A stretch of 64,000 nucleotides of DNA, taken from NCBI GenBank assembly GCA_030697175.1, contig JAUYQR010000022.1, forward strand, positions 1 to 64,000, given 5' to 3'. Source of the stretch: Paracoccaceae bacterium. Lineage in GTDB: Bacteria; Pseudomonadota; Alphaproteobacteria; Rhodobacterales; Rhodobacteraceae. Both the position numbers and the translations under genes were made by a program. Below are positions 31,801 to 54,368 of the stretch, piece by piece. The notes beneath the pieces are model-generated. The model saw only the letters and a program-made list of their open reading frames with translations. It was not told where the DNA came from and did no database searches. Numbering within the stretch: position 1 is the stretch's first letter; every line of letters begins with the position of its first letter.

Positions 31801-31886
31801 TCCGCGCCCCGCTTGACGCCAGGATATTTGCAAACGCATCTAATTCTGTCTAGCATGATTCGACGGAGGGCGACGGAATTGCCTTG

Positions 31887-31938
31887 GGTTTGCACCGGTC
31901 TGCAAAGCGTCTGGCAGGCGTATGGCAAACGTATGGCA
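31887..31938. promoter_or_regulatory. Helically phased direct-repeat array between divergent operons
   Basis: CGTCTGGCA (31908), CGTATGGCA (31919) and CGTATGGCA (31930) recur with an exact 11-base period. Two degenerate units (GGTTTGCA at 31887, GGTCTGCA at 31897) extend the array leftward. It lies between the flavoprotein/transporter operon (start 31800) and the cyclase operon (start 32001). The period of one helical turn suggests cooperative binding of a regulator, possibly the MarR protein at 34346. Confidence 0.5.
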
Positions 31939-32000
31939 TCCGGCCCGACAAGACACGCACAAAACGGCCCCGAACGGCTGCAACACAAAGGGAGAGTGAC

Positions 32001-32792
32001 ATGACTTCGGCAACGGTTTTGGCGGACTTCGCCGGGATGCTGGCCTCGGGCGGCATCGAGGTGGTGGATTGCACGGGCGTGCTTGGCCCGGAGACGCCGC
32101 TTTTGAAACTGCCGCCGGATTTCGCCAAGGACACCCCGCCGATCAAGATTCACCGGATCAGCGAATACGACAAGGACGGTCCGTTCTGGGCATGGAACTG
32201 GCTGGAACTGGGCGAACATTCCGGCACGCATTTCGACGCGCCGCACCATTGGATCACCGGCAAGGATTACGCCGACGGCTACACCGATACGCTGCCGGTG
32301 CAGCGGTTGGTGGCACCGGTGAACGTGCTGGACTTTTCGGCGGAGTGCAACGCGAACCCCGATTTTCTGCTGACCATCGACCATGTGAAAGCCTGGGAAG
32401 CCAGGCACGGCGCAATCAATGCAGGCGAATGGGTGGTGCTGCGGTCGGACTGGGACGCGCGGGCGCATGACGAGGCGCTGTTCCTGAACGCAGACGAGAC
32501 CGGGCCGCACACCCCGGGGCCGACCGCCGAGGTGATCGAGTATCTTCTGTCGAAGGGCATCGTCGGCTGGGGCAGCCAGTGCATCGGCACGGATGCGGGG
32601 CAGGCAGGGGGCATGACGCCGCCGTTCCCGGCGCACAACCTTTTGCACAAGCACAACTGCTATGGGCTGGCGAGCCTTGCCAACCTGTCGAAGCTGCCGC
32701 CGAAGGGCGCGATCCTGATCGCGGCGCCGTTGAAGATCAAGAACGGCACCGGCTCACCGATCCGGGCGCTGGCCTTGGTGCCGCGGGGCTGA
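32001..32792 (+). CDS. Cyclase-family metal-dependent hydrolase (KynB/isatin-hydrolase-like)
   Basis: The 263-residue protein belongs to the PF04199 cyclase family. It carries the metal-binding motif HSGTHFDAPHH (HxGTHxDxPxH) near residue 75 and QCIGTDAGQ later. Family members include kynurenine formamidase (KynB, about 210 residues) and isatin hydrolase (about 260); the length favours the latter-like subgroup, but substrate assignment is inference. Both reactions lead toward anthranilate, which the genes at 46-54 kb are predicted to degrade. GGGAG precedes the ATG at 32001. It is the first gene of an operon, four bases before the second flavoprotein. Confidence 0.85.
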   Translation: MTSATVLADFAGMLASGGIEVVDCTGVLGPETPLLKLPPDFAKDTPPIKIHRISEYDKDGPFWAWNWLELGEHSGTHFDAPHHWITGKDYADGYTDTLPVQRLVAPVNVLDFSAECNANPDFLLTIDHVKAWEARHGAINAGEWVVLRSDWDARAHDEALFLNADETGPHTPGPTAEVIEYLLSKGIVGWGSQCIGTDAGQAGGMTPPFPAHNLLHKHNCYGLASLANLSKLPPKGAILIAAPLKIKNGTGSPIRALALVPRG

Positions 32793-32795
32793 GGC

Positions 32796-34349: not shown

Positions 34350-34819
34350 ACGACGAAACCCCCATACCTGCGCTGCGGCTGGGCGAGATCGGGCTGTGGA
34401 ACTATGCGCCCTATCTGATGAACCGCATCATGGGGCGGTATAATGCCAGCTTGCGTGAAGAGATGGTCGGGCTTGGGCTATCGACCCCGAAGATGCGGGC
34501 GCTGGCGGTGCTGTCGGTGGTGGAGACGCCGCTGATCCGGGAATTGGCGGTTTATACCGTGACCGACCCTTCGACGCTCAGCCGGGCGCTGGACCAGTTG
34601 CAGGCCGAAGGGCTGATCCGGCGCGAGGCGGATGCGACCGACAGCCGCGCGGTGCGGGTGGTGATCACCGAAGCGGGGCGCGCCGCGTTCGACGCGCTTT
34701 GGCCGCAGATGGCGCAGGCCAACGCGCGGATGTTTCGCGGCATACCCGAGGATGAGCGGCGCGCCTTTGTCGGCACGCTGCAGAAGATGCTGACCAACAT
34801 CAGAAAGCATGAGATCTGA
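34346..34819 (+). CDS. MarR-family transcriptional regulator
   Basis: The 157-residue protein has a MarR winged-helix core: STPKMRALAVLSVVETPLIRELAVYTVTDPSTLSRALDQLQAEGLIRREADATDSRAVRVVITEAG. Flanking helices (NYAPYLMNRIMGRYN and the C-terminal LQKMLTNI) form the dimer interface. The start is the ATG at 34346, whose ATGA overlaps the flavoprotein stop. It probably regulates its own operon, with the phased repeats at 31887-31938 as candidate operator; MarR proteins usually bind palindromes, so that link is tentative. Confidence 0.9.
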   Translation: MNDETPIPALRLGEIGLWNYAPYLMNRIMGRYNASLREEMVGLGLSTPKMRALAVLSVVETPLIRELAVYTVTDPSTLSRALDQLQAEGLIRREADATDSRAVRVVITEAGRAAFDALWPQMAQANARMFRGIPEDERRAFVGTLQKMLTNIRKHEI

Positions 34820-34820
34820 C

Positions 34821-36959
34821 ATGGCGGAACGCAGTTTCAAGGCCGAAGTCCAGGACCTGCGCAAGGGCGCGGGTGATACCTTCACCGGCGAGGGGATATT
34901 GGCGATCACCAAGGCGCTTTTGGAAAACGGCGTCGGGTATGTCGGCGGCTATCAGGGCGCGCCGATCAGCCATCTGATGGATGTGCTGGCCGATGCCGAG
35001 GAGCTTTTGGGCGAATTGGGTGTGCGGTTCGAGGCCAACGCCAACGAGGCGGCGGCTGCGGCGATGCTGGCGGCAAGCGTGCATTATCCGATCCGGGGGG
35101 CGGTGACGTTCAAGGGGCCGGTCGGGGTGAACGTGGCCTCGGACGCGCTGGCGAACCTTTCGTCCTCGGGGGTGACGGGCGGTGCGCTGGTGATCCTTGG
35201 CGAGGATTACGGCGAGGGGTCTTCGATCATGCAGGAACGCAGCCACGCCTTTGCGATGAAGTCGCAGTTCTGGCTCTTGGACCCCAGACCGAACCTGCCG
35301 TCGATCGTGAAGGCGGTGGGGGATGGGTTTGCCTTGAGCGAGGCGTCGAACAGCCCGGTGATGCTGACGATGCGGATCCGGTCCTGCCATGTGACGGGGA
35401 CGTTCGAGACCAGGGACAACCAGCGCCCGCCGCTATCGGTGCGGGAGGCGCTGAGCAATCCGCGCAGCGATTTCAACCGCGTGGTGCTGCCGCCGATGTC
35501 TTATGTGCATGAACAGGACAAGGTGAAGAACCGCTGGCCGGCGGCGGAGAAGTTCATCATCGAGCACAAGCTGAACGAGGTGTTCGGCGGGGAAGGCTCG
35601 GTCGGCATCGTCTGTCAGGGGGGCATGTACAACGGTGTCATCCGCGCGTTGCAGCGATTGGGGCTGGCGGACATCTACGGCGCGACCGAGGTGCCGGTTT
35701 ACTGCCTGAACGTGACCTACCCGTTGATTTCCAGCGAGTTTCTGGCGTTTGCGCAGAACAAGCATTCAGTGCTGGTGATCGAGGAAGGCCAGCCGGAGTT
35801 CATCGAGACCCAGCTTGGGTCGTTCCTCTACCGCGCGGGCAGCCATGTGCGGCTGCACGGCAAGGGCATGTTCCCGATGGCGGGGGAGTATACCGGGCAG
35901 GTGATGCTGGACGGGATCAGCGCCTTTCTGAAGGCGGCGGCCCCGGACCTGTTGCCTGCCACCGTGCGCGCGCCGAACATGGACCGGCCTGCCATCCCGG
36001 ACCTGTCAAAGACCGTGCCGATCCGCCCGCCGGGTTTCTGCACCGGCTGCCCGGAGCGGCCGATCTTTGCTGCGATGAAGCTGGTCGAGAAGGAGCTGGG
36101 CAAGCACCAGATCGCCGCCGATATCGGCTGCCATCTGTTCGGCAGCCTGCCGCCGTTCGAGATTGGTGGGGCGACGATGGGCTACGGGCTGGGTCCGGCG
36201 GCCAACGGCGCGTTTGATGGTGGAGGCGAGAAGCGGCCGATTGCGATCATCGGGGATGGTGGGTTCTGGCACAACGGGTTGAACTCCTCGATCACCAACA
36301 TGGTGTTCAACAAGTCGGACGGCGTGGTGATGGTGGTGGACAACTTCTATTCCGCCGCAACGGGTGGGCAGGACGTGATGTCGAGCCGTGCCGACAACGC
36401 GACGAAGGCGACGCAGAACCCGATATCGAAGGCGCTGAAAGGCGTGGGGGTGGAGTGGGTGCGGCAGATCGACCACACCTATGACGTGAAGAAGATGCGC
36501 GACACCCTGCGCGAGGCCCTGACAACCGATGCCAAGGGGCCGAAGGTGATCGTGGCCTCCAGCGAGTGCATGTTGAACAAGCAGCGGCGGGAAAAGCCGT
36601 TGAAGGCGGCGGCGATCAAGGAAGGTCGGCGGGTCGAGGCGCCGCGCTTTGGAGTTGATGAGGAGGTCTGCACCGGGGATCACGCCTGCATCCGCCTGTC
36701 GGGCTGCCCGTCGCTGTCGTTGAAGCGGTTGGACGATCCGCTCAGGGATGATCCGGTGGCGTCGATCGACCAATCCTGCGTCGGCTGCGGCAACTGTGGC
36801 GAGGTGGCGGATGCGGCCGTTCTTTGCCCCAGCTTCTACCGGGCGGATGTGGTGCATAACCCGTCGCCGATGGAGGCGCGGCTGGCGCGGTGGCGGGCAC
36901 GGGTGATCGGCTGGTTGCAGGCGCGCCGCAGTGCCGGGCGGTTGGAGTTCACGGCATGA
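34821..36959 (+). CDS. 2-oxoacid:ferredoxin oxidoreductase, TPP/Fe-S subunit (indolepyruvate ferredoxin oxidoreductase IorA type)
   Basis: The 712-residue protein combines a pyrimidine-binding domain (GEGILAITKALLENGVGYVGGYQGAPISHLMDVL), a TPP-binding domain with GDGGFWHNGLNSSITNMVFNKSDGVVMVVDN, and C-terminal iron-sulfur motifs: CTGDHACIRLSGCPSL and CVGCGNC...CPSF. The first is the CX5CX5CP form seen in fused aerobic IorAB enzymes. Such enzymes decarboxylate an aryl 2-oxoacid to an acyl-CoA. Indolepyruvate is the classic substrate; 2-aminophenylglyoxylate (isatinate) giving 2-aminobenzoyl-CoA would link directly to the 46-54 kb pathway. The start at 34821 follows the MarR stop by one base; the stop overlaps the partner gene. 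Confidence 0.88.
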   Translation: MAERSFKAEVQDLRKGAGDTFTGEGILAITKALLENGVGYVGGYQGAPISHLMDVLADAEELLGELGVRFEANANEAAAAAMLAASVHYPIRGAVTFKGPVGVNVASDALANLSSSGVTGGALVILGEDYGEGSSIMQERSHAFAMKSQFWLLDPRPNLPSIVKAVGDGFALSEASNSPVMLTMRIRSCHVTGTFETRDNQRPPLSVREALSNPRSDFNRVVLPPMSYVHEQDKVKNRWPAAEKFIIEHKLNEVFGGEGSVGIVCQGGMYNGVIRALQRLGLADIYGATEVPVYCLNVTYPLISSEFLAFAQNKHSVLVIEEGQPEFIETQLGSFLYRAGSHVRLHGKGMFPMAGEYTGQVMLDGISAFLKAAAPDLLPATVRAPNMDRPAIPDLSKTVPIRPPGFCTGCPERPIFAAMKLVEKELGKHQIAADIGCHLFGSLPPFEIGGATMGYGLGPAANGAFDGGGEKRPIAIIGDGGFWHNGLNSSITNMVFNKSDGVVMVVDNFYSAATGGQDVMSSRADNATKATQNPISKALKGVGVEWVRQIDHTYDVKKMRDTLREALTTDAKGPKVIVASSECMLNKQRREKPLKAAAIKEGRRVEAPRFGVDEEVCTGDHACIRLSGCPSLSLKRLDDPLRDDPVASIDQSCVGCGNCGEVADAAVLCPSFYRADVVHNPSPMEARLARWRARVIGWLQARRSAGRLEFTA

Positions 36960-38497
36960 CGCTGCAATCGCCGATGCTGCCGGTGCCTGCCGGGACGGAT
37001 GGGATGATCAAGCTCGCGGTGTTGGCGGTGGGTGGTCAGGGCGGCGGCGTGCTGACCGGCTGGATCGAGACTCTGGCGCGGGCAAATGGCTATGTCTGCC
37101 AGGCGACGTCCGTGGCGGGGGTGGCGCAGCGGACGGGGGCCACGGTCTATTACGTGGAGATGGCACCTGCGACGGGGCGGGTGCCGGTGTTCAGCCTGAT
37201 GCCGGCGGCGGGTGATGTGGACGTGATGATCACCGCCGAGATGATGGAGGCGGGGCGGTCGATCATTCGCGGCTTCGTGACGCCGGACCGCACGGTGCTG
37301 ATCACCTCGACCCACCGGGCGCTGGCGGTGAGCGAGAAGATGGTGCCGGGGGATGGGATCGCGTCGAGCGAGGAGGTGATCGCGGCGGCGGAGGTCGCGG
37401 CGCGGCGGTTCATCGCGGCGGATTTCGATGCGGTGGCGGTGAAGAACGGGTCGGTGATTTCGGCGACGCTCTTTGGGGCGCTGGCGGCTTCGGGGGCGCT
37501 GCCGTTTGCGCGCGAGGCGTTCGAGGCGGCGATCCGGGCGGGGGGCAGGGGCGTGGAAGCCTCGGTCCGGGCGTTTGGCGCGGGGTATGAGGCGGCGCTG
37601 GCGGGGGTGCCCGAGGCGGCGGTGCCCGAGGCGGCGGCGCCGATGGCCAAGGTGTCGGCGGTCAGGGGCCCGGCAAGGAAGCTGGCCGAGTGGGAGCGGC
37701 TGATGGCGCGGGTGGCGGCTTTGCCTGCGGCGGTGGCGGAACTGGCGGCGCCGGGCTTGCGCAAGGTCGTGGACTTTCAGGACCTGGCCTATGGGGCGGA
37801 GTATCTGGCGCGGATCGAGGGGCTGGTGGCGCGGGATGCGGCGCCCTTCGAGTTTGCGCGCGAGGCGGCGAAGTATGTGGCCAATGCGATGGCCTATGAC
37901 GATGTGATCCGGGTCGCGGATCTGAAGACGCGGGGGCGGCGGTTCGAGCGGATCCGGGGCGAGATGGGGGTGAGGGAGGCGCAGGTGATGCAGCTGACCG
38001 AGTTCTTCCATCCGAGGGCGGAGGAGATTGCGGGGCTGTTGTCGGCGGGGCTGGGGGCAAAGGTGCAGGCGAGCCCGGTGTGGATGGCGCGGCTGGACCG
38101 GTGGTTCGGCAAGGGGCGGCGGCTCAGGACGGACAGTCTGGCGGCTTACCTGACCTTGTATGCAATCGGCGGCCTCAGGGGGTGGCGGCGGCGGACGCTG
38201 CGGCACGCGCAGGAGGTGGCGCATCTGGAGGGGTGGCTTGCGGTGGCGCTGGGCTATCTGGAGAGCGACCGGGCGCTGGCGGTGGAGGTGGTGCGCTGTC
38301 GGCGGCTGGTGAAGGGCTATTCGGACACCCATGCGCGGGGGCTGTCGAAGTTTGACCGGGTGCTGGCCGGGATCGAGATGGTGGCCGGGCGGGCGGATGC
38401 GGGGCCTTGGGCGGCACGGCTGCGGGAGGCGGCGCTGAAGGATGAAGAGGGCCGCGCGCTGGAGGGGGCGCTGGCGACGATCCGCAGTTTTGTCTGA
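36956..38497 (+). CDS. 2-oxoacid:ferredoxin oxidoreductase gamma/beta subunit with DUF6537-like extension (IorB type)
   Basis: Residues about 17-205 of this 513-residue protein form the POR gamma-type domain (IKLAVLAVGGQGGGVLTGWIETLARANGYVCQATSVAGVAQRTGATVYYVEM). The remaining 300 residues are an extension (RKLAEWERLMARVAAL...GLRKVVDFQDLAYGAEYLARIEGL) of the kind seen at the C-terminus of fused aerobic indolepyruvate oxidoreductases. Here the long polypeptide is split into two genes coupled by an ATGA overlap. An interdomain Ala/Pro-rich repeat (VPEAAVPEAAAP) marks the junction. It ends in a hairpin at its stop codon. Confidence 0.85.
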   Translation: MTLQSPMLPVPAGTDGMIKLAVLAVGGQGGGVLTGWIETLARANGYVCQATSVAGVAQRTGATVYYVEMAPATGRVPVFSLMPAAGDVDVMITAEMMEAGRSIIRGFVTPDRTVLITSTHRALAVSEKMVPGDGIASSEEVIAAAEVAARRFIAADFDAVAVKNGSVISATLFGALAASGALPFAREAFEAAIRAGGRGVEASVRAFGAGYEAALAGVPEAAVPEAAAPMAKVSAVRGPARKLAEWERLMARVAALPAAVAELAAPGLRKVVDFQDLAYGAEYLARIEGLVARDAAPFEFAREAAKYVANAMAYDDVIRVADLKTRGRRFERIRGEMGVREAQVMQLTEFFHPRAEEIAGLLSAGLGAKVQASPVWMARLDRWFGKGRRLRTDSLAAYLTLYAIGGLRGWRRRTLRHAQEVAHLEGWLAVALGYLESDRALAVEVVRCRRLVKGYSDTHARGLSKFDRVLAGIEMVAGRADAGPWAARLREAALKDEEGRALEGALATIRSFV

Positions 38498-38668: not shown

Positions 38669-39175
38669 TCAGGCGGTGAGGCTGCGGTAGGCGCCGTTCC
38701 AGTAGATCAGGGCGCCCGCGCCCGGTGTCTTGCGGATCGCCTGGACACGGCCGATCAGGATGGTGTGGGTGGCACGGTCGATCATCTCCTCGACCGTGCA
38801 GTCGAAGGCGGTGGGCGCGCCTTTCAGCAGACGCGCGCCGGTGACGGCGGTTTCCCAATCTGCCCCTTCATACCGCGCGGCCCCCTTGACCCCGCCAAAG
38901 CCGGAGAAGCGTTCGGCAACGGCCTGATGCGCCGCGCCGAGCGAGGACCAGCCGAAGCGGCCCTCGCTGCGAAGGATCGGAATCGAGGAGGAGGTGAGGT
39001 TGACGCAGGCCAGGAGCAGCGGTGGTTCGGCGGAAAGCGAGATCGCCGAGGTCACGACGAGGCCTGAGGAGGCTTCGCCGCTGCCCACGGTGATGACGCT
39101 GACGTTGCCGACGAAGGCGCGCATCGCGTCGCGGAACTCCTTGGCGGGCAGGTCGTTGGGCAAACGGTTCGGCAT
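38669..39175 (-). CDS. Flavin reductase (FMN-binding, RutF/HpaC-like)
   Basis: The 168-residue protein matches the flavin_reduct family: FRDAMRAFVGNVSVITVGSGEASSGLVVTSAISLSAEPPLLLACVNLTSSSIPILRSEGRFGWSSL, with a middle AVAERFSGFGGVKGAARYEGADW and a terminal HTILIGRVQAI. It supplies reduced FMN using NAD(P)H to the monooxygenase encoded nine bases upstream in the same operon, making a two-component system. Confidence 0.9.
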   Translation of the reverse strand: MPNRLPNDLPAKEFRDAMRAFVGNVSVITVGSGEASSGLVVTSAISLSAEPPLLLACVNLTSSSIPILRSEGRFGWSSLGAAHQAVAERFSGFGGVKGAARYEGADWETAVTGARLLKGAPTAFDCTVEEMIDRATHTILIGRVQAIRKTPGAGALIYWNGAYRSLTA

Positions 39176-39184
39176 GGTGGCTCC

Positions 39185-40279
39185 CTATCGGATTCCGGCC
39201 CGTTTCAGGCGCGGCAGCACTTCCTCGGCGAAATAGGGGAACTCCTTGAGATAATCCACAAAAGACAGCGTGGTGCCGGCAAATCCGGTCTCGTGCAGGG
39301 AAATTATGCCTGCAGCAACCTGATCCGGCGTGCCGATCAGGGGGAAACCACCGTGGCCGAGCGCAAAGCCGTAGCGGATCTGCGTCAGAAGATCATGCGG
39401 GAACGACAGCGCATGGGCAAGTTGCAGGCGGATCAGGTTGTCGGTGGCAACCCAGTCGGCGTTTTCGTCGACGATGTAGTGGACGTAATCGCGCGCCTCC
39501 TTTTCGGTCGGGCGGCAGACGACATGGGCAAAGGTGAGGACGCCGACCTTGCGGTTCTTGGCGGCGGCTTGGGCCTTCAGCGCGGCGATCTCGGCCTTGG
39601 AGCGGGCGAGGTCGATGGCGGGGGTGAAGAGATAGTTGGCGTTGTCGGTGGCAAACTCGCGCCCCTGCGGGCTGCCGGCGGCGTTGATGACGGGAACCGA
39701 GCCGTTGACGGGCGCGGGGTCGCCCTTCAGGCCACGGATGTTGTTGAAATAGGTGCCGTCCCAATCGAAATGGGTGTCCGAGGCCCAGATCTTGCGCACA
39801 AGGTCGAACCATTCCTGCGCGTAAGCGTAGCGGGTTTCGTGGTCGGTTGGCAGATCGAGGCCGAGCGCCTGATATTCCGGCTGGTTCCAGCCCGCGACGA
39901 TGTTGAGCCCGGCGCGGCCGTGGCTGATCTGGTCGATGGTGGCGATCTGCTTGGCGACGACGACCGGGTGGTTCGCGGCGCAGTGGATGGTGGCGAAGAC
40001 CGAGATGTTCTGCGTCGAGGCGAGGAGGCCTGCGGCCCAGGTCATCGTCTCCAAGACACCGCCGTGAAAATCGGTCGGGCCGCCATAGCCGATCCAGCGC
40101 GCGATCGGCAGCATGAAGTCGATGCCGGCGGCGTCGAGAAGTTTCGCCAGCGCAAGGTTGTTGTCCCACGAGTTCACCCAGCGGTCGGGTGCCTGCGTCG
40201 GCGTCATGCCGGAGGAGCAGTTGGTGGAGAAGGTGCCCAGACGAAAGTGGTCGCCTGATGCCATCAGGTTCTGTGTCAT
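39185..40279 (-). CDS. Two-component flavin-dependent monooxygenase, RutA-like LLM family
   Basis: The 364-residue TIM-barrel flavoenzyme belongs to the bacterial luciferase-like family and resembles RutA: LLDAAGIDFMLPIARWIGYGGPTDFHGGVLETMTWAAGLLASTQNISVFATIH, ISHGRAGLNIVAGWNQPEYQALGL and TYFNNIRGLKGDPAPVNGSVPVINAAGSPQGREFA. RutA opens the uracil ring at an amide bond through a flavin-N5-peroxide, so lactam cleavage of a heterocycle is a reasonable hypothesis here. It is not the Rut pathway: rutB, rutD and rutE are absent. The flavin reductase follows after nine bases. Its promoter faces the divergent regulator gene at 40397. Confidence 0.82.
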   Translation of the reverse strand: MTQNLMASGDHFRLGTFSTNCSSGMTPTQAPDRWVNSWDNNLALAKLLDAAGIDFMLPIARWIGYGGPTDFHGGVLETMTWAAGLLASTQNISVFATIHCAANHPVVVAKQIATIDQISHGRAGLNIVAGWNQPEYQALGLDLPTDHETRYAYAQEWFDLVRKIWASDTHFDWDGTYFNNIRGLKGDPAPVNGSVPVINAAGSPQGREFATDNANYLFTPAIDLARSKAEIAALKAQAAAKNRKVGVLTFAHVVCRPTEKEARDYVHYIVDENADWVATDNLIRLQLAHALSFPHDLLTQIRYGFALGHGGFPLIGTPDQVAAGIISLHETGFAGTTLSFVDYLKEFPYFAEEVLPRLKRAGIR

Positions 40280-40983: not shown

Positions 40984-42105
40984 CTAGAGGAGGAGGCTGG
41001 CCAGTGCCGTGTGGAGGCGCTGGACGCCTGTGTCGGTGGTCAGCGTGCCGGGGGAGAGGCGGAGGGTTTGGCTGCGCGCGTCGGTCGTGATCGACTGGGC
41101 GCGGAGGGCCGCGACAATCTGGGGCGCGGGGTGGGTTTCGGGGAGACGGAGCATGATGGAACCGCCGCGTTGGGACTCGGGTCTGGGGGTGAGGAGGGGA
41201 AGGTTCAGGGCGTCGGCCATGTCTATGAGGTGCGCCGTGAGCGTGCGGTTGTGGGCGAGGATCGCGGCGTGGTCCTGGGCGGCGTGCCAGTCGAGCGCGG
41301 GGAGCGAGGCGAGGGCGGCCATGCAGCCGGGGGTGCCTGAATCGAAGCGGCGGATGTCTGGCGCGTAGGCGAAGCGGGTGATGTCCCAATTGAACGGGTT
41401 GGGTTGGGAGAACCAGCCGCGGAGTTGCGGGTGGCAGTGCGGGATGAGGCGGGGGGAGAGGTAGAGGATGCCCGCGCCGGGGGTGCCGCACATCCATTTG
41501 AGCGAGGTGGAGATGGCGAAATCGACCTCGGGCGCGTTAACGTCGAAGGGCAGGAGGCCGGCGGCCTGGGTAATGTCGACGCCGATGAGGCTGCCCATGC
41601 GGCGGCCGTGGGCGACCATTGCGGGGAGGTTCATGCGGTGGGAGGAGGTGGAGGACACCCAGGTGAGGAGGGCGAGGCCGACATCTGGGGTCCAGGCGTC
41701 GAGGAAGTCTTCGTCCTCGACGAAAGCGGCACCCTGGCGAAGCGGGACGGTCTTGAGGGTGAAGCCGCAGGCCGTTGCCATGCCGTTCAGGAGGAAGTGG
41801 TTGGAGGGGAAGCAGTCGGCGGCGGCGAGGACGGTGCGACCGTTGAGGTGGCCGGGCGGAAGGGATTGCACGAGCGAGTGGAAGGCTTGCGTCACGGACT
41901 CGAAGGTGGTGACCGTGTCGGGGCCTGCGTTCAGGATGGCACGCCAGCGGTCGATGAAGCGCTGGCGGAGCGGCAGGACGGTGGCCCATTGCGCATCGTC
42001 AGGGGTGCCCCAGGTGACGGCGAAATCGGCCATTGCGGCGGCGATGTCGCGGGCCTTGCCGGGATACATGCCGATGGAGTGGTAGAGGAAATAGGCGTCG
42101 GACAT
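40984..42105 (-). CDS. PLP-dependent class V enzyme, kynureninase-like
   Basis: The 373-residue protein has a class V aminotransferase fold with the PLP lysine in STSLKWMCGTPGAGILYLSP and the preceding Asp in GVDITQAAGLLPFDV. The segments FNWDITRFAYAPDIRRFDSGTPGCMAALASL and the N-terminal YFLYHSIGMYPG fit the kynureninase-like branch better than cysteine desulfurase. Kynureninase releases anthranilate and alanine from kynurenine, which would feed the anthranilate pathway at 46-54 kb; the assignment rests on branch resemblance and context. The start at 42105 is preferred over 42180. It is the last gene of the beta-oxidation operon. Confidence 0.7.
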   Translation of the reverse strand: MSDAYFLYHSIGMYPGKARDIAAAMADFAVTWGTPDDAQWATVLPLRQRFIDRWRAILNAGPDTVTTFESVTQAFHSLVQSLPPGHLNGRTVLAAADCFPSNHFLLNGMATACGFTLKTVPLRQGAAFVEDEDFLDAWTPDVGLALLTWVSSTSSHRMNLPAMVAHGRRMGSLIGVDITQAAGLLPFDVNAPEVDFAISTSLKWMCGTPGAGILYLSPRLIPHCHPQLRGWFSQPNPFNWDITRFAYAPDIRRFDSGTPGCMAALASLPALDWHAAQDHAAILAHNRTLTAHLIDMADALNLPLLTPRPESQRGGSIMLRLPETHPAPQIVAALRAQSITTDARSQTLRLSPGTLTTDTGVQRLHTALASLLL

Positions 42106-42183
42106 TTGTGTTCCTAAGGGCTCGGCGTTTGCTTGTCGCGTGATTGAGGCGGAAGACCGGTTCCCACTTTTCCGCTTCACGCT

Positions 42184-46016: not shown

Positions 46017-48302
46017 ATGAACATTCTCTGCCTTGGCGGCGGGCCGGCCGGACTTTACTTTGCCATCTCGATGAAGCTGCGCGATCCGTCGCACCGGGTG
46101 ACGGTGCTGGAGCGCAACCGGGCGAATGATACGTTCGGCTGGGGGGTGGTGCTGTCGGACGACGCGCTGGGCAAGATGGAGAAGAACGATCCGGTCAGCA
46201 CGGCGGCGATCCGGGGTGAGTTCGCCTATTGGGACGACATCGCCGTTGTGCATAACGGGGTGCGGACGGTGTCGGGCGGGCATGGCTTTGCCGGGATCGG
46301 GCGCAAGACGCTGCTGATCCTGTTGCAGGCGCGGGCGCGGGAGCTGGGCGTCGATCTGCGGTTCGAGACGGAGTTCAGGACGGCCGAGGACTACCGGAAG
46401 GAATACGATCTGGTGGTGGCGACGGATGGCCTCAACTCCGTGGTGCGGCGGGAATACGAGAGCGTTTTCCAGCCCGACATCGACACGCGGAAGTGCAAGT
46501 TCGTCTGGCTTGGCACCCATGCGAAGTTCGACGATGCCTTCACCTTCATTTTTGAAAAGACCGAACATGGCTGGGTCTGGGCGCATGTCTACCAGTTCGA
46601 CCGCGACACCGCGACGTTCATCGTGGAGTGCCTGCCGCAGACGTGGGAGGCATGGGGTTTCCCCGACATGACCAAGGAGGAAACCGTCGAGACCTGCCGC
46701 AAGATATTCGCGGCGCATCTTGGCGGGCATGACCTGATGTCGAACGCGGCGCATCTGCGCGGCTCGGCGGTCTGGATGCAGTTTCCGCGGGTGATCTGCC
46801 AGAAATGGTATCACGAGAATGTCGTCCTGATGGGCGATGCGGCGGCGACGGGGCATTTCTCGATCGGGTCCGGCACGCGGCTGGCGCTGGATTCGGCGAT
46901 TGCGCTGGCGGATTTCCTGCACAGCGAGCCGACGCTGGAAGCGGCCTTCGAGCGGTATCAGGAGGAGCGGCGGGTCGAGGTCTTGCGGCTGCAATCGGCG
47001 GCGAGGAACAGCCTTGAGTGGTTCGAGGAGGTGGAGCGGTATCTGGACATGCCGCCCGTGCAGTTCGCCTATTCGCTGCTGACCCGCAGCCAGCGGATCG
47101 GGCATGAAAACCTGCGGCTGCGCGACCCGAAGTGGCTGGCCGAGGCGGAGGACTGGTTTCAGGAACAGGCGGGCGGCGAACCGGGGCGCAAGCCGATGTT
47201 CGCGCCGTTCCGGCTGCGCGACATGGCGTTGAAGAACCGCGTCGTCGTCAGCCCGATGGCGCAATACAAGGCGGTCGACGGCTGCCCGACCGACTGGCAT
47301 TTCGTGCATTACGCCGAACGCGCCAAGGGCGGTGCGGGGCTGGTCTACACCGAGATGACCTGCGTTTCCGCCAATGGCCGGATCACACCCGGTTGCCCCG
47401 GCCTTTACACGCCAAAGCATGAGGCGGCGTGGAAGCGGCTGGTCGATTTCGTGCATGAGGAGACGGAGGCGAAGATCTGCTGCCAGATCGGCCACGCGGG
47501 GCGCAAGGCATCGACCAAGCTGGGGTGGGAGGAGGACAACGCGCCTCTGCACCGTGGCAACTGGCCGGTGATGAGTGCCTCGGCGATTGCGTGGTCGCCG
47601 GCCAATCAGGTGCCGAAGGAGATGGACCAGGGCGACATGGACAAGGTGTTGTTGCAGTTCGTCAAGGCGACCGAGATGGCCAGGAAGTGCGGGTTTGACA
47701 TGATCGAACTTCATGCGGCGCATGGCTATCTGATCTCGAGCTTTCTCAGCCCGAAATCGAACACGAGGGACGATGAGTATGGCGGCAGTCTGGAGAACCG
47801 CCTGCGCTATCCGTTGGAAGTTTTCGCGGCGATGCGGGCGGAATGGCCGGGGGCAAAGCCGATGTCGGTCAGGATTTCCGCGACCGATTGGGTTGGGACG
47901 GACGGTGTGACGCCGGACGAGGCGGTGGAGGTCGCGCAGGCCTTTGCCGCCGCCGGGGCGGATATCATCGACGTCAGTGCGGGGCAGACCTCGACCGACG
48001 CGAAGCCGATCTACGGGCGGATGTTCCAGACGCCGTTCAGCGACCGCATCCGCAACGAGGCGGGGCTGGCGACGATGGCGGTGGGCAACATCACCGAAGC
48101 CGATCAGGTGAACCAGATCTTGCTGGCCGGGCGGGCCGATCTGGTGTGTCTGGCGCGGCCACATCTGGCGGACCCCTACTGGACGCTGCACGCGGCGATT
48201 GCGGCGGGGGATGCGGGGACGGCGTGGCCGCTGCCCTATCTGCCGGGCCGTGATCAGGCGCGGCGTTTGGTGGCGAAAGCTGCGGAGGTGATCCGTGCTT
48301 GA
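46017..48302 (+). CDS. 2-aminobenzoyl-CoA monooxygenase/reductase (bifunctional)
   Basis: This 761-residue flavoprotein fuses two enzymes. Residues about 1-390 are an FAD monooxygenase ([64 protein letters not shown]) of the salicylyl-/2-aminobenzoyl-CoA 5-hydroxylase type. Residues about 395-761 are an old-yellow-enzyme barrel ([62 protein letters not shown]). In Azoarcus evansii this fusion hydroxylates and reduces 2-aminobenzoyl-CoA to a non-aromatic 2-amino-5-oxocyclohexene carbonyl-CoA. GCAGGAG stands before the ATG at 46017. The matching CoA ligase closes the same operon, which makes the anthranilate assignment strong. Confidence 0.93.
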
Positions 48303-49029
48303 GGGCCGCCGCGTCCTGATCACCGGCGGCGGATCGGGCGCCGGGGCCGACCTTGCGCGCGGCTTTGCGGCGGCGGCGGCGAAGGTGGTGATCGCAGGGC
48401 GGCGGCGCGAGGCGCTGGAGGCGGTGGCGGCGGGCATCGGCGCGCAGGTTGTCGTGGCCGATGTGACGGACGAGGCTTCGGTCGCGGCGATGTTTGCGGC
48501 GGCGGGGTCGTGCGACATCGTGATCGCCAACGCCGGGGCGGCGGATTCGGCGCCGTTCCTGCGCACCACGCTGGAGCAATGGAACGCGATGCTGGCGGTG
48601 AACCTGACGGGGGTGTTTCTGACGCTTCAGGCGGGGCTGCGGCAGATGCCGGGCTGGGGGCGGCTGATCTCGGTCGCCTCGACGGCGGGGCTGAAAGGCT
48701 ATGCGAAGATTGCGCCCTATGCTGCGGCCAAGCACGGGGTGGTCGGGCTGACGCGGTCCTTGGCGCTGGAGGTGGCGAAGGGGCCGGTGACGGTGAATGC
48801 GCTGTGTCCGGGGTTTCTGGACACGCCGATGACGGACCGGTCGGTGGCGGTGATCATGGAAAAGACCGGGCGGAGCGAGGCCGAGGCGCGGGCGGCGTTG
48901 GAGGGGATGAACCCGCAGGGGCGGCTGATCCAGCCGGCGGAGGTGACGGCGGCGGCGTTGTGGCTGTGCGGGCCGGGGTCGGAGGGGATCAACGGGCAGG
49001 CGATTTCCATCGCGGGGGGCGAGGTGTGA
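48295..49029 (+). CDS. Short-chain dehydrogenase/reductase, GTG start
   Basis: This 244-residue SDR has the [12 protein letters not shown] cofactor motif, NAGAAD, the catalytic Ser in [11 protein letters not shown] and Tyr/Lys in [14 protein letters not shown]. It starts at GTG 48295, eight bases inside the monooxygenase gene, and ends overlapping the MarR start (GTGTGA). It probably interconverts a ring hydroxyl and ketone of the alicyclic intermediate made by the upstream enzyme. Confidence 0.88.
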
Positions 49030-49457
49030 GCGAGCTGTCGAAGCGCCGGTTGAAGATGTGGATCAGGCTTCTGGGTGTGACGCGGGCGGCAGAGAGCCAT
49101 CTGCGCGAACATCTGCGGGTGAACCATGGCACAACCTTGCCGCGCTTTGACGTGATGGCGGCGCTGTGGCGGCGGCGCGAGGGCGTGACGATGAGTGAAT
49201 TGTCGCGGATGCTGCTGGTATCGAACGGCAACGCGACGACGGTGGTGGACCGGCTGGAAGCGGACGGCTTCGTGCGGCGCACGCCATCCGAAACCGACCG
49301 GCGCACGGTCTTCGTCGCGCTGACGCCGGAGGGGCTGGCCGAGTTCGAAGGGCTGGCGGCGGGGCATGAGGCGGAGGTGTCGAAGCTGTTTTCCGGCATC
49401 AGCGAGGCGGATCTGGAGGCGATGACCGAGATCCTGAAACGGATGGGGGCACGATGA
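49026..49457 (+). CDS. MarR-family transcriptional regulator, GTG start
   Basis: The 143-residue protein holds a MarR winged helix: [67 protein letters not shown]- and C-terminal helices surround it. The GTG at 49026 overlaps the SDR stop. As part of the operon it likely binds the 18-bp palindrome at 45955 and responds to anthranilate or its CoA ester, like other MarR regulators of hybrid aromatic pathways. Confidence 0.9.
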
Positions 49458-50266
49458 CGATGATGGCGGGTTTGAAGCCGGCGCATTTCCTGTGGGAGAT
49501 GCGGGGTAGGGTGGCGGTGATCCGGCTGAACCGGCCGGAACGGAAGAACCCGCTGACCTTCGAGAGCTATGCCGAGTTGCGCGATTGCTTTCGCCGTTTG
49601 GCGGGGGCGTCGGATGTGGATGTGGTGGTGCTGGCGTCGAACGGGGGGAATTTCTGTTCGGGCGGCGATGTGCATGACATCATCGGGCCGCTCATTGGCA
49701 AGCCGATGGCGGAGTTGTTGGCGTTCACCCGGATGACCGGGGATCTGGTGAAGGCGATGCTGACCTGCGGCAAGCCGGTGATCGCGGCGGTGGACGGGGT
49801 GGCGGTGGGCGCGGGGGCGATCCTTGCGATGGCGGCGGATTTGCGGTTGGCGACGCCCGAGGCGAAATGTGCGTTCCTGTTCACGCGGGTGGGATTGGCG
49901 GGCTGTGACATGGGGGCTTGTGCCATGCTGCCGCGGATCATCGGGCAGGGGCGGGCGGCGGAGCTGTTGTATACCGGGCGGGTGATGACGGCGGCGGAGG
50001 GCGAGCGCTGGGGCTTTTGGAACGCGCTGCACGGGGCGGAGGCGCTGGAGGCGGAGGCGATGGTTCTGGCGGAGCGGCTGGCCTCGGGGCCCACGTTCGC
50101 GCATGGCGTGACCAAGACGCAGTTGTTGCAGGAGTGGGACATGGGCGTCTTGGCCGCGATCGAGGCGGAGGCGCAGGCGCAGGCGATCTGCATGCAGACC
50201 GAGGATTTCGAGCGGGCGTATCTTGCGTTCGTGGCCAAGGAAAAGCCGGTGTTTCGGGGGAACTGA
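49454..50266 (+). CDS. Enoyl-CoA hydratase/isomerase (crotonase family)
   Basis: The 270-residue crotonase shows [23 protein letters not shown], the oxyanion segment [47 protein letters not shown] and, in place of the usual PGx[30 protein letters not shown]. Loss of the conserved catalytic Glu pattern seen in simple hydratases suggests a special hydrolase or isomerase, possibly ring-opening of the alicyclic CoA ester. It overlaps the MarR stop by four bases. Confidence 0.88.
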
Positions 50267-50320: not shown

Positions 50321-51463
50321 ATGAGTGACGCGACTTTCCTGAACTGGCCGTTCTTCGAGGATCGGCATCGTGCCTTGGCCGAAGGGCTGGAGGCGTGGGC
50401 GTCGGCGCATCTGCCGGTGGATCATGGCGATGTCGATCAGGCGTGCCGGGGGCTGGTGGCGGCTTTGGGTGCCGGGGGGTGGTTGCGGCATTCGGGGGGC
50501 GAGGGCCTTGACGTGCGGACGCTGTGCCTGATCCGCGAGACGCTGGCGCGCCATGACGGGTTGGCGGATTTCGCCTTTGCGATGCAGGGCTTGGGGATGG
50601 GGGCGGTGTCGCTGTTCGGGACAGCGGAGCAGCGGGCGTGGCTGGAGCGGACGCGGGCGGGGACGGCGATTGCGGGGTTTGCGCTGACCGAGCCCGGCTC
50701 GGGGTCTGATGTGGCGGCGACGGCGACGATGGCCGAACGGGTGCCCGACCAAGACGGTGGCGGCTGGATGCTGAACGGCGAGAAGACCTGGATATCGAAC
50801 GGCGGGATTGCGGATGTTTACGTCATCATCGCGCGAACCGGCGAGGCGCCGGGGGCGAAGGGCTTGTCGGCCTTTCTGATGCCGGCGGATGTGGCGGGGC
50901 TGGGGGTGGAGGAGCGGCTGGAGGTGATCGCGCCGCATCCTTTGGCGCGGTTGTCGTTGCGGGATGTGCATCTGCCGCAGGGGGCGCTGATCGGGCAGCC
51001 GGGGGCGGGGTTCAAGGTGGCGATGTCGGTCTTGGATGTGTTCCGCTCGACCGTTGGGGCGGCGGCTTTGGGCTTTGCGCGGCGGGCGCTGGATGAGGCT
51101 TTGGCGCGCGTCAAGGCGCGGAAGATCCAGGGACAGGCGCTGGCCGAGATGCAGATGGTGCAGGGGCATCTTGCGGATATGGCGCTGAAGATCGATGCGG
51201 CGGCGCTGCTGGTCTACCGGGCGGCCTGGGTGAAGGATCAGGGCGCGGCGCGGGTCAGCCGGGAGGCGGCGATGGCGAAGCTCTATGCCACCGAGGCCGC
51301 GCAGGAGGTGATCGACATGGCGGTGCAACTGCATGGCGGCGACGGGGTGCGCGCGGGGTCGGCGGTCGAAAGCCTTTACCGCGAGATCAGGGCGCTTCGG
51401 ATTTATGAAGGCGCGTCGGACGTGCAACGGATCGTGATCGCCCGCGCGGTGCTGGGCGGCTGA
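50321..51463 (+). CDS. Acyl-CoA dehydrogenase
   Basis: The 380-residue flavoenzyme has the FAD/substrate motif [38 protein letters not shown], and a C-terminal end [43 protein letters not shown] carrying the usual catalytic-base Glu (YEGAS). It would introduce a double bond into an alicyclic or opened CoA intermediate, passing electrons to ETF. The gene begins directly after the repeat at 50270-50320, the only gap over 50 bases in the operon. Confidence 0.92.
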
Positions 51464-51477
51464 CAAGGGAGGGTGAG

Positions 51478-51924
51478 ATGAAGCTGGACGGTGGCATCAC
51501 GCGGAACGGCGCGGCCTATCACGGGCGCGAGTTGAACATCCTAGGCCAGCGGTATTTCCCGAAGGCCAGTTGCGAAGCGAGCTTTGCCTTCGAGACCAAT
51601 TCGGAGCCGGGGCAGTTCGTGCCGGTGCATATCCACCCGCATCAGGACGAGTTCATTCTGGTGCAGGAGGGGCAGTTGGAGGTGAAGCTGGACGGGGTCT
51701 GGCAGACGGCGAAGGCGGGCGATCTGGTGCGGATGCCGCGCGGCGTGCCGCATGGGTATTTCAACAAGTCGGAAAGCCCATGCCGGGCGCTGTTCTGGGT
51801 GTCGCCGGCTGGCAGGCTGGAGGCGTTGTTCGACGTCTTGCACAACATGACGGATGTGCCGGCGGTGATCGCGGCCTCGGCCGCGCATGACGTGGAGTTT
51901 CTGCCGCCCGAGGCCAACGAATGA
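51478..51924 (+). CDS. Cupin-domain protein
   Basis: This 148-residue single cupin shows motif 1 (VPVHIHPHQDEFILVQEGQLEVKLDG, with two His and Glu metal ligands) and motif 2 (GDLVRMPRGVPHGYFNKSE, with the last His). Such proteins include dioxygenases and isomerases acting on small polar molecules. In this operon it could act on the amino/keto ring intermediate or a ring-opened product; the reaction is not known. It starts 15 bases after the dehydrogenase, with AGGGAGG as ribosome site, and overlaps the thioesterase gene. Confidence 0.82.
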   Translation: MKLDGGITRNGAAYHGRELNILGQRYFPKASCEASFAFETNSEPGQFVPVHIHPHQDEFILVQEGQLEVKLDGVWQTAKAGDLVRMPRGVPHGYFNKSESPCRALFWVSPAGRLEALFDVLHNMTDVPAVIAASAAHDVEFLPPEANE

Positions 51925-52334
51925 TCTACCGGCGTGTGATCCCTGTCGAGTTCAACCACTGCGATCCGGCGGGGATCATGTTCTATCCGCGCTATTTCGA
52001 GATGACCAATTCGGTCGTCGAGAACTTTTTCCGCGAGGTGGCGGGGCGGTCGTATGCGGCGATGATGGATGCCGGCGAAGGCGTGCCGACGGCGCGGCTG
52101 GAGACCGAGTTTCACGCGCCGACACGGCTGGGGGAGGTGCTGGAATGGCGGCTTCATGTGACGCGGCTGGGCGGCAGTTCGGTGGGGTTTACGGTCGAGG
52201 CCTGGTGTGGGGGCAGCCACCGGGTGACGGCGAAACTGGTGCTGGTTTGGGTCGAGGCGGGGGGGCGACCGAAACCCTGGCCCGAGGCGGTCAGGGCGCG
52301 GATAGCCGCGTTTCAGGAGGCGGATGATGCATGA
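51921..52334 (+). CDS. Acyl-CoA thioesterase, 4-hydroxybenzoyl-CoA thioesterase type
   Basis: The 137-residue hot-dog protein starts MIYRRVIPVEFNHCDPAGIMFYPRYFEMTNSVVENFFREV, with the catalytic Asp of 4HBT enzymes in the CDPAGI motif. It likely hydrolyses stalled aromatic CoA esters, releasing CoA when the pathway backs up. It is joined by overlaps to the cupin (ATGA) and RidA genes. A. evansii-type aromatic CoA pathways often encode such a relief thioesterase. Confidence 0.9.
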   Translation: MIYRRVIPVEFNHCDPAGIMFYPRYFEMTNSVVENFFREVAGRSYAAMMDAGEGVPTARLETEFHAPTRLGEVLEWRLHVTRLGGSSVGFTVEAWCGGSHRVTAKLVLVWVEAGGRPKPWPEAVRARIAAFQEADDA

Positions 52335-52731
52335 GTTCCTGCACCCCAAGGGGTGGAAGCCGGCGATCGGCTATTCCAACGGCGTCGCCGCGACCGGGCG
52401 GATGGTGTTCACCGGCGGCATGGTCGGCTGGAACGGCGACTGCGAGTTCGAGACGGATGCGTTCGTTGGGCAGGTTCGGCAGGCCCTGGCCAACATCGTG
52501 GCGGTGCTGGCTGAAGCGGGGGCGCGGCCCGAGCATATCGTGCGGCTGACGTGGTATGTGACGTCGAAGGCGGAATATCTGGCCGACCTCAAGGCGCTGG
52601 GCGCGGCCTACAAGGCGACGATCGGGCGGCACTATCCGGCGATGGCGCTGGTGCAGGTGGTGGCGCTGGTCGAGGACCGGGCCAAGGTCGAGATCGAGGC
52701 GACGGCGGTGATACCGGAGGGTGAGGCATGA
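52324..52731 (+). CDS. RidA-family enamine/imine deaminase
   Basis: The 135-residue protein matches RidA: YSNGVAATGRMVFTGGMVGWNGDCEFETDAFVGQVRQALANIVAVLAEAGARPEHIVRLTWYVTS and the terminal AMALVQVVALVEDRAKVEIEATAVIP, with the Arg that holds the substrate carboxylate replaced in part by neutral residues. RidA proteins hydrolyse enamines/imines to ketones and ammonia. The predicted ring product of the monooxygenase is an enamine, so release of the amino nitrogen is a natural role. ATGs at 52324 and 52327 are both usable after GGAGG. It overlaps both neighbours. Confidence 0.9.
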   Translation: MMHEFLHPKGWKPAIGYSNGVAATGRMVFTGGMVGWNGDCEFETDAFVGQVRQALANIVAVLAEAGARPEHIVRLTWYVTSKAEYLADLKALGAAYKATIGRHYPAMALVQVVALVEDRAKVEIEATAVIPEGEA

Positions 52732-54368
52732 AACTGGGGCCGACGAGACTTGGGCCGACGGGGCATCTCGACAGCTTTACCCGCGACCGATTGCCTGCGG
52801 CGGAGGATTGGCCGGAGATCAATACGAGCGCGTTCCCCTACCCTGAATGGATGAACGCGGCGGTAGAACTGACCGATGCGATGGTGGCCAAGGGGTTCGG
52901 CGACCATACCGCGCTGATCGGCAACGGGCGGCAGCGGACCTACAAGGAACTGGCCGACTGGACCAACCGGATCGCGCATGCGCTGGTCGAGGATTACGGG
53001 GTGAAGCCGGGGAACCGGGTGCTGATCCGGTCTGCGAACAACCCGGCGATGGTGGCGGCGTGGTTGGCGGCGACCAAGGCGGGGGCTGTGGTGGTGAACA
53101 CCATGCCGATGCTGCGGGCGGGCGAGTTGACCGCGATCATCGACAAGGCCGAGGTCAGCCACGCGCTGTGCGATACGCGGTTGATGGAAGATCTGGTGGC
53201 GGCGGCGAAGGGCTCGGCTTTTCTGAAGACAGTTGTCGGGTTTGACGGGACGGCGAACCACGATGCGGAACTGGACCGGGTGGCCCTGCGCAAATCGGTG
53301 CGGTTTCAGGGGCCGAAGGTCGGGCGGGACGATGTGGCGCTGCTGGGGTTCACCAGCGGCACGACGGGTGAGCCGAAAGCGACGATGCATTTTCACCGCG
53401 ATCTTCTGATCATCGCAGACGGCTACGCGCGGGAGGTGTTGCAGGTGGTGCCGGAGGACGTGTTCGTAGGCTCGCCTCCGTTGGCGTTTACCTTCGGGCT
53501 GGGCGGGCTGGCGGTATTTCCGCTGCGGTTCGGCGCGGCGGCGGCGTTGTTGGAACAGGCGAGCCCGCCGAACATGATTTCGATCATTCAGGAGCATAGG
53601 GCGACGGTGTGCTTTACCGCGCCGACCGCCTACCGGGTGATGCTGAAGGCGATGGAGGAAGGGGCGGACCTGTCCAGTTTGCGGGCGGCGGTGAGTGCGG
53701 GGGAAACCCTGCCCGCGCCGGTGTATGACGAGTGGATCGCCAGAACCGGCAAGCCGATGCTGGACGGGATCGGCGCGACCGAGATGCTGCACATCTTTCT
53801 GACCAACCGGTTCAGCGACCATCGGCCCGCCTGCACGGGGCGGCCCGTGGCGGGGTATGAGGCGAAGATCGTCGGCGAGGACATGAAAGAATTGCCGCGC
53901 GGCGAGGTGGGACGGCTGGCTGTGCGGGGTCCGACGGGGTGCCGGTATCTGGCAGACGACCGGCAGCGGAGATATGTGCGGGATGGCTGGAACCTGACGG
54001 GCGACAGTTTCTGGCAGGACGACGAGGGCCGCTTCCACTTTGCCGCACGGTCGGACGACATGATCATTTCGGCGGGCTACAACATCGCGGGGCCGGAGGT
54101 GGAGGCGGCACTTCTGTCGCATCCGGCGGTGCTGGAGTGCGCGGTGGTCGGGGTGAAGGACGAGGATCGCGGCCAGATCGTCGAGGCGCATGTGGTGCTG
54201 GCGGCGGGGTTTGCGGGTGACGCGCTGATGGTCAAGCTGCTGCAGGATCACGCGAAATCGGTGATTGCCCCTTACAAATATCCGCGCCGTGTGGTTTTTG
54301 TGGACGCGTTGCCGAAAACCCAGACCGGCAAGATTCAGCGGTTCAGGCTTTCCGAAGGGCGCCGTTAG
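52728..54368 (+). CDS. 2-aminobenzoate (anthranilate)-CoA ligase
   Basis: The 546-residue adenylate-forming enzyme has the P-loop LLGFTSGTTGEPKATMHFH, the GATEMLHIFLTN motif, DGWNLTGDSFWQDDEGRFHFAARSDDMI and the C-terminal lysine motif PKTQTGKIQRF. The N-terminal DRLPAAEDWPEI and FPYPEWMNAAVELTDAMV resemble 2-aminobenzoate/benzoate CoA ligases. It would activate anthranilate with ATP and CoA, the entry step to the enzyme at 46017. The ATG overlaps the RidA stop. A start a few codons later is possible because of a repeated LGPT at the N-terminus. Confidence 0.9.
   Translation: MKLGPTRLGPTGHLDSFTRDRLPAAEDWPEINTSAFPYPEWMNAAVELTDAMVAKGFGDHTALIGNGRQRTYKELADWTNRIAHALVEDYGVKPGNRVLIRSANNPAMVAAWLAATKAGAVVVNTMPMLRAGELTAIIDKAEVSHALCDTRLMEDLVAAAKGSAFLKTVVGFDGTANHDAELDRVALRKSVRFQGPKVGRDDVALLGFTSGTTGEPKATMHFHRDLLIIADGYAREVLQVVPEDVFVGSPPLAFTFGLGGLAVFPLRFGAAAALLEQASPPNMISIIQEHRATVCFTAPTAYRVMLKAMEEGADLSSLRAAVSAGETLPAPVYDEWIARTGKPMLDGIGATEMLHIFLTNRFSDHRPACTGRPVAGYEAKIVGEDMKELPRGEVGRLAVRGPTGCRYLADDRQRRYVRDGWNLTGDSFWQDDEGRFHFAARSDDMIISAGYNIAGPEVEAALLSHPAVLECAVVGVKDEDRGQIVEAHVVLAAGFAGDALMVKLLQDHAKSVIAPYKYPRRVVFVDALPKTQTGKIQRFRLSEGRR

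Follow-up and report, generated by a model that had tools for sequence, protein, structure and literature searches.

2-Aminobenzoyl-CoA degradation is represented by the abm cluster of Azoarcus evansii, for which Schuehle et al. reportedly described in 2001 a ligase, a fused monooxygenase/reductase, genes of the β-oxidation type and a MarR regulator. A 'putative translation inhibitor', i.e. a protein of the Rid family, is said to have been noted in the same cluster without a role being given to it. The formation of 2-amino-5-oxocyclohex-1-enecarbonyl-CoA is the known chemistry of enzymes of the 2-aminobenzoyl-CoA monooxygenase/reductase (ACMR) type. An earlier note on the DNA analysed here called the steps after this amino-oxo CoA product poorly described, which is a fair statement. 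Searches of the open-licence literature found no enzyme to which the release of nitrogen after ACMR has been ascribed in the aerobic degradation of anthraniloyl-CoA, and no paper that ties a Rid protein, or a cupin of the type discussed below, to this pathway (weak evidence of absence).

The Rid family itself is better characterized. RidA proteins require Arg105, replacement of which abolishes the activity, and the subfamilies Rid4 to Rid7, which are devoid of this residue, are regarded as lacking imine hydrolase activity (PMC4433059, PMC8113886). Every Rid protein without the arginine reported so far is without deaminase activity, and RutC, an arginine-bearing Rid protein that deaminates the β-enamine 3-aminoacrylate, is inactive on a β-enamine as the R104A variant (PMC8113886, PMC4433059). 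Y3550, a Rid5/6-like protein from Yersinia that has no arginine, does not complement a ridA mutant (PMC7221256). Further Rid-like deaminases have ring-cleaved aromatic amines as their substrates (PMC6449761).

The locus to be compared with these systems lies in a stretch of 64,000 nucleotides from a Paracoccaceae bacterium (the window), in which nine genes on the + strand form one operon. The first gene encodes ACMR (46017..48302), a FAD monooxygenase fused to an old-yellow-enzyme domain (Pfam FAD_binding_3 and Oxidored_FMN; NCBIfam NF006101), and is followed by genes for an SDR oxidoreductase (48295..49029; Pfam adh_short_C2), which is a recurring neighbour in other genomes, a MarR-type regulator (49026..49457; Pfam MarR, 7.4e-15), a crotonase that is a candidate ring-opening hydrolase (CRO, 49454..50266; NCBIfam NF006107, 460.7 bits) and an acyl-CoA dehydrogenase (ACD, 50321..51463; Pfam Acyl-CoA_dh_1/M/N). 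The 3' end of the operon comprises genes for a small single-domain cupin of 148 aa with a His51-His53-Glu58-His92 metal site (51478..51924; Pfam Cupin_2, 5.6e-20), a 4HBT-type thioesterase (TE, 51921..52334; Pfam 4HBT_2/4HBT), in which Asp15 is kept in 94 of 94 distinct sequences, an arginine-less Rid protein of 135 aa, the proposed enamine hydrolase (52324..52731; Pfam Ribonuc_L-PSP), and a predicted 2-aminobenzoate-CoA (aryl-CoA) ligase of the benzoate-CoA-ligase family (LIG, 52728..54368), which scores just below the cut-off of TIGR02262 (353.9 vs. 375 bits). The junctions from ACMR to LIG measure, in order, -8, -4, -4, +54, +14, -4, -11 and -4 nt. The one of +14 nt, between ACD and the cupin gene, contains a purine-rich leader, and the last three are overlaps of 4–11 nt (cupin/TE -4, TE/Rid -11, Rid/LIG -4), which bears out the tight coupling of the cupin and Rid genes with the thioesterase and the ligase that had been pointed out before.

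As in an abm cluster, the FAD monooxygenase and the OYE reductase are fused (both domains are found within 46017-48302) and a ligase, here of predicted specificity, adjoins genes of the β-oxidation type (SDR, CRO and ACD, in one operon with LIG). Read from its genes, the operon is a complete 2-aminobenzoyl-CoA (anthraniloyl-CoA) set. The first search for ACMR in 398 Pseudomonadota genomes (213 genera) located 70 places, that of the window among them, in 68 genomes, and the neighbourhoods of the remaining 69 places were mapped by similarity to the proteins of the window. An ACMR-SDR-MarR-CRO-ACD arrangement that has LIG, TE and Rid close by is widespread, the cupin is present in a subset of loci, and the same genes come together again in unrelated genomes, which indicates that their grouping goes beyond chance. 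At a threshold of 1e-120, LIG was identified in 66 of the 71 genomes finally found to have ACMR.

The ACMR sequence matches NF006101 with 1263.8 bits (cut-off 1078), and both this model and the RefSeq-style annotation carry the name salicylyl-CoA 5-hydroxylase/oxidoreductase. If the name is taken literally, the operon would degrade salicylate, no amine would be involved, and the Rid protein would be incidental. We regard this as very unlikely: the window encodes a kynureninase-like PLP enzyme (40984..42180, - strand; Pfam Aminotran_5 and KYNU_C), genes for tryptophan 2,3-dioxygenase and/or kynureninase adjoin ACMR clusters in three named records (Ruegeria pomeroyi, Arthrobacter and Rhodococcus), and the Rid protein is tied to ACMR yet missing from a gentisate-type gene set of Natrinema (see below). 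Because of the kynureninase-like gene and the tryptophan-catabolic genes beside other ACMR clusters, we infer that the substrate of the operon is anthranilate, a product of tryptophan, degraded via CoA thioesters. The salicylyl-CoA name is given also to clusters next to tryptophan dioxygenase, e.g. in R. pomeroyi DSS-3, and probably misleads for many members of the family.

Upstream of the operon (30232-38497), the window contains a cyclase-family (isatin-hydrolase-like) gene, two FAD amine-oxidase-like genes and the genes of an IorA/IorB-type 2-oxoacid:ferredoxin oxidoreductase. The iad loci end at anthranilate (PMC9613470); IorAB may catalyse a direct conversion of isatinate into anthraniloyl-CoA, the ligase then being dispensable on indole-acetate. 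The IorA gene (IORA) was found in 27 of the 71 ACMR genomes, and among the five genomes from which LIG is absent at 1e-120, four have IORA. A gene for a luciferase-like monooxygenase (38669-40279, - strand), accompanied by a flavin reductase, adjoins the kynureninase-like gene; this pair may open a flavin-dependent way into an indole-type compound, unlike the iad loci with their Rieske oxygenase (PMC9613470). A second class of ACMR loci (L045 and L046) exhibits the arrangement IORA-IORB-TE-ACMR without SDR, CRO and ACD, the Rid subfamily also being absent from the genome G296, and may release a free hydroxylated acid rather than follow the ring-opening route.

The Rid protein of the window is confidently assigned to the Rid superfamily by its match to PF01042 (1.5e-21; 77 bits, cut-off 27.3), and its structural model (pLDDT 96) exhibits the Rid fold, with Rid-family structures making up all of the best 50 Foldseek matches. 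The earlier designation 'RidA' holds as far as the family is concerned, but the defining arginine of RidA proteins (Arg105 of the Salmonella protein) is absent, with Met107 at the aligned place. Among 148 distinct sequences scoring at least 100 bits to the window Rid, residue 107 is Met in 145, Ser in three, which are unlinked Bradyrhizobium paralogs, and Arg in none. The other residues typical of RidA, Tyr17 and Glu120, are retained: Tyr17 in 145 of the 148 sequences (Phe in three), and the glutamate, here residue 123, in all of them. A scan of one genome per species, limited to the best 80 loci by similarity to the window Rid, among which close relatives are over-represented, revealed Met at this site in 80/80 and ACMR, CRO or ACD in the flank of 75/80. 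The first structural match of the model is 5v4f from Yersinia (33% identity), perhaps Y3550, which is also without the arginine in the sequence alignment. The source genome has six places matching PF01042, of which the window Rid and three others were aligned, two being below the profile cut-off. The three paralogs were considered as an arginine-bearing comparison and rejected, as none has arginine at the site (Cys, Ser or Ala are found near that place), and the contrast between arginine and Met rests on the literature and on alignments with YabJ. Since these paralogs are devoid of arginine too, its loss alone is not a mark of the pathway; the invariant Met is.

The distribution of this Rid subfamily was analysed with a profile built from 27 cluster Rids (E <= 1e-25) in the 398 Pseudomonadota genomes. 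It was identified in 69 of them, comprising 69 of the 71 ACMR genomes and 0 of the 327 others. The first ACMR search was incomplete in its recovery: in three genomes (G019, G338 and G394) an ACMR gene that it had missed was found beside Rid, which raised the ACMR total from 68 to 71, and this correction leans towards agreement, as it was possible only where Rid is present. Without it, 66 genomes have both, two ACMR only, three Rid only, and 327 neither. By genus, Rid is present in 44 of the 46 ACMR genera and in none of the remaining genera. The counted genomes are related rather than independent, and the Fisher values computed for these tables ignore kinship, as do the hypergeometric values obtained in the comparison of loci. 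CRO, too, is absent from both ACMR genomes that have no Rid (G296 and G349). No more than 16 kb separates Rid from ACMR or CRO in 66 of 69 genomes, in a count confined to Rid places above 158 bits (the 10 lowest-scoring places belong to genomes each of which also has a high-scoring Rid), and at L253, L255 and L256 Rid accompanies ACMR with no CRO or ACD nearby. Could Rid and the cupin nevertheless be housekeeping genes whose presence in the operon is due to drift? Both families are common, as the six PF01042 genes of the source genome illustrate; yet such an origin is scarcely credible, given a subfamily found with ACMR in 69/71 genomes, vs. 0/327 of those without, and in several phyla. On this co-occurrence profile a housekeeping Rid was rejected, and the profile lends strong support to the pathway role that the earlier note had proposed for it. 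Thus, the Rid subfamily is a near-obligate part of the ACMR pathway; the co-occurrence marks membership of the pathway, not the step.

Outside Pseudomonadota, the stretches around ACMR were read in 12 plasmid records. Rid was found near ACMR in nine of them, from Actinomycetota, Deinococcota and haloarchaea (Arthrobacter, Tsukamurella, Rhodococcus, Streptantibioticus, Deinococcus and four haloarchaea), and the residue at the arginine site of these nine proteins is Met in six, Leu in one and Val in one, with the site cut off in one and Arg in none. No Rid was detected in the stretch read around ACMR in Streptomyces BHT-5-2, Gemmatirosa (at the end of the record) and Natrinema. The Natrinema set consists of a monooxygenase (33% identical), a ligase, a 360-aa cupin, a FAH hydrolase and a thioesterase, from which we infer, for this single case, a gentisate-type, nitrogen-free route; such a route, its substrate being deduced from the genes, would explain the missing Rid. 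Three of the haloarchaeal clusters (L265, L269 and L271) adjoin genes annotated as trpB and an extra LLM-type flavin gene, and also contain Rid, SDR, acyl-CoA dehydrogenase and MaoC.

In the scheme that we favour, and that seems to us probable to a modest degree, the Rid protein is an enamine hydrolase acting after ACMR, CRO opens the ring, and the cupin is facultative. LIG would make 2-aminobenzoyl-CoA, ACMR would make 2-amino-5-oxocyclohex-1-enecarbonyl-CoA, and Rid would hydrolyse this enamine to 2,5-dioxocyclohexanecarbonyl-CoA and ammonia. The latter thioester would be C7H8O4-CoA; in Arthrobacter Rue61a, a compound of this composition was reported only in anthranilate-grown cells and was tentatively named 2,5-dioxocyclohexanecarbonyl-CoA, and it may be a product of the extraction, since the ACMR product hydrolyses by itself in acid (PMC3534580). 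RutC, with its arginine in place, offers a precedent for a Rid protein hydrolysing a β-enamine, a class to which the ACMR product belongs as well. Met107 would make the pocket apolar, and the arginine, whose known partner is the free carboxylate of imino acids, may be expendable because this carboxylate is masked here as a CoA thioester, which could account for the apolar residues (Met, Leu or Val) found in its place. We give about an even chance to the more general proposal that the arginine-less subfamily comprises acyl-CoA enamine hydrolases, in which the carboxylate-binding arginine has been swapped for an apolar Met, Leu or Val. The published arginine rule predicts no deaminase activity for the window Rid.

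Or perhaps the Rid protein belongs to the pathway without being a deaminase? The nitrogen could then be lost spontaneously or by the action of the crotonase, while Rid would tautomerise the ACMR product or guard against a reactive intermediate. Arginine-less Rids are without demonstrated deaminase activity, the closest solved relative, 5v4f, is one of them, and RidA modified by HOCl is reported to be a chaperone (PMC4284807). On the other hand, nearly all sequences retain the Glu and the Tyr of the Rid site, the nitrogen-free Natrinema set is without Rid, and no other conserved gene suits the hydrolysis of a C-N bond. On balance we consider a non-deaminase role unlikely, if still to be reckoned with, and return to Rid as the enamine hydrolase.

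Its proposed product, 2,5-dioxocyclohexanecarbonyl-CoA, is a β-keto thioester and hence ready for retro-Claisen opening. CRO was identified in 67 genomes, every one of which also has Rid (67 of the 69 Rid genomes). The two catalytic glutamates of enoyl-CoA hydratases are missing from this protein: in 134 distinct sequences aligned by eye, the positions that we take to correspond to Glu144 and Glu164 of the rat enzyme are occupied by I/M/V/A (position 123) and R/K/Q (position 145), while Asp152 is present in 134/134. In having an invariant Asp and no Glu pair, the protein is like MenB/BadI-like enzymes. CRO would thus be a retro-Claisen hydrolase of this kind rather than a hydratase and would open the ring of the β-keto thioester, and SDR and ACD would feed the ring-opened product to β-oxidation. 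The two steps, with Rid releasing the nitrogen and CRO opening the ring, would make a coherent pair, and the MenB/BadI-like crotonase is a better candidate for ring opening than the cupin.

The latter had been proposed in the earlier note to act on the diketone, and a stronger form of this model would have it cleave or rearrange the diketone as the obligate next step. The metal site of the protein is indeed intact: the HxHx4E motif and the His of motif 2 (H51, H53, E58 and H92) are present in 56 of 56 distinct sequences, and the model (pLDDT 95) has a quercetinase-like fold over the whole chain, quercetinases, i.e. dioxygenases of enol-ketone substrates, being the best among the structural matches listed (Z 17.4, 143 residues aligned, rmsd 2.1). 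However, at E <= 1e-20 the cupin was found in only 24 of the 398 genomes (13 genera), and although all of these are ACMR genomes (24/71, vs. 0/327 of the others), it is absent from 47 of the 71 and in several genomes unlinked to ACMR or far from it, whereas 67 of the 69 Rid genomes encode CRO. Since it is absent from so many ACMR genomes, the cupin is not a universal step: its profile rules it out as an obligate one, the cleavage model is quite improbable, and action on the diketone finds no support as a general step. A cupin step might yet be general if the strains without this cupin turned out to employ a different one. The claim that it serves the pathway rather than housekeeping is upheld in a restricted form, the cupin being an accessory, facultative metal enzyme.

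What could such an enzyme do? Among the best 80 Rid loci, the cupin is found in 17, in 10 of which it is followed by TE, and this frequent pairing suggests that it handles a CoA-free side product. In a possible side branch, which would concern the cupin only and is compatible with the main scheme, TE would free 5-hydroxyanthranilate from a shunt product of ACMR and the cupin would oxidise it. We prefer this version, if weakly, because a shortage of NADH can lead ACMR to form 5-hydroxyanthraniloyl-CoA (PMC3534580). Cupins related to that of the window are found elsewhere beside flavin monooxygenases, and the ACMR clusters of Arthrobacter, Tsukamurella and Rhodococcus have a cupin gene of a different family, situated between those for a FAH hydrolase and a thioesterase, an arrangement that suggests independent recruitment. 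Against this stand the 4 of 17 loci in which SDR and CRO flank the cupin instead, and the circumstance that the cupin has no known activity. Most known gentisate-type dioxygenases, moreover, are larger bicupins. The side branch is a tentative proposal, on the doubtful side. Relatives of the window cupin at L160, L161, L162 and L261 lie outside ACMR clusters, where their neighbours are AraC regulators and monooxygenases of FMO-like or FAD_binding_3 type; a scan of 10 neighbours of unlinked cupins, with rough gene calling, revealed AraC regulators, flavin monooxygenases, a transporter and others. Phaeobacter accounts for 57 of the 69 plasmid records with a cupin match, and Paracoccus denitrificans for none of them, while in R. 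pomeroyi DSS-3 the cupin is linked to the ACMR cluster. A tie of the cupin to the indole-acetate/isatin genes was considered and dropped: IORA is present in 7 of 24 ACMR genomes with the cupin and in 20 of 47 without it, by eye no link.

The near-perfect co-occurrence and the clear sequence signature make the Rid protein a candidate for the release of nitrogen. If the prediction is true, an arginine-less Rid would for the first time have a function assigned to it, and the rule by which the arginine predicts deaminase activity in this family would be broken; the protein thus sets up a sharp test of the claim that Rids without arginine are not deaminases. Either outcome will be informative, pointing to the deamination step that is missing or to a new task of the Rid family. 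Dropping the cupin as a universal step, in turn, avoids a wrong reconstruction of the pathway.

Compared with the abm cluster of A. evansii as reported, the operon agrees in the ligase, the ACMR-type fusion, the β-oxidation genes, MarR and Rid; the cupin and the 4HBT thioesterase, present in the window, are not known to belong to that cluster. The window cupin shares its fold over the whole chain with the quercetin dioxygenases 5flh and 2h0v (Z about 17), at a sequence identity of 16–25%. The window Rid shares its fold with RutC, which also belongs to a catabolic operon and acts on a β-enamine, speeding up a step that runs by itself as well; RutC, however, needs its arginine, whereas the window protein has Met and its proposed role would be on a CoA thioester (PMC8113886). 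2-Aminomuconate deaminase and 2-amino-5-carboxymuconic-6-semialdehyde deaminase are Rid-like and act in aromatic-amine catabolism, as proposed here; their substrates are free-acid products of ring cleavage, while that of the window Rid would be a CoA thioester with the ring intact, and the likeness is one of pathway context rather than of compared site residues (PMC6449761). Finally, Rid5/Rid6 proteins, e.g. Y. pestis Y3550, resemble the window Rid in being devoid of the catalytic arginine, a likeness in the missing residue and not a subfamily assignment; no pathway was known for them (PMC4433059, PMC7221256), whereas the group represented by the window Rid is bound to ACMR.
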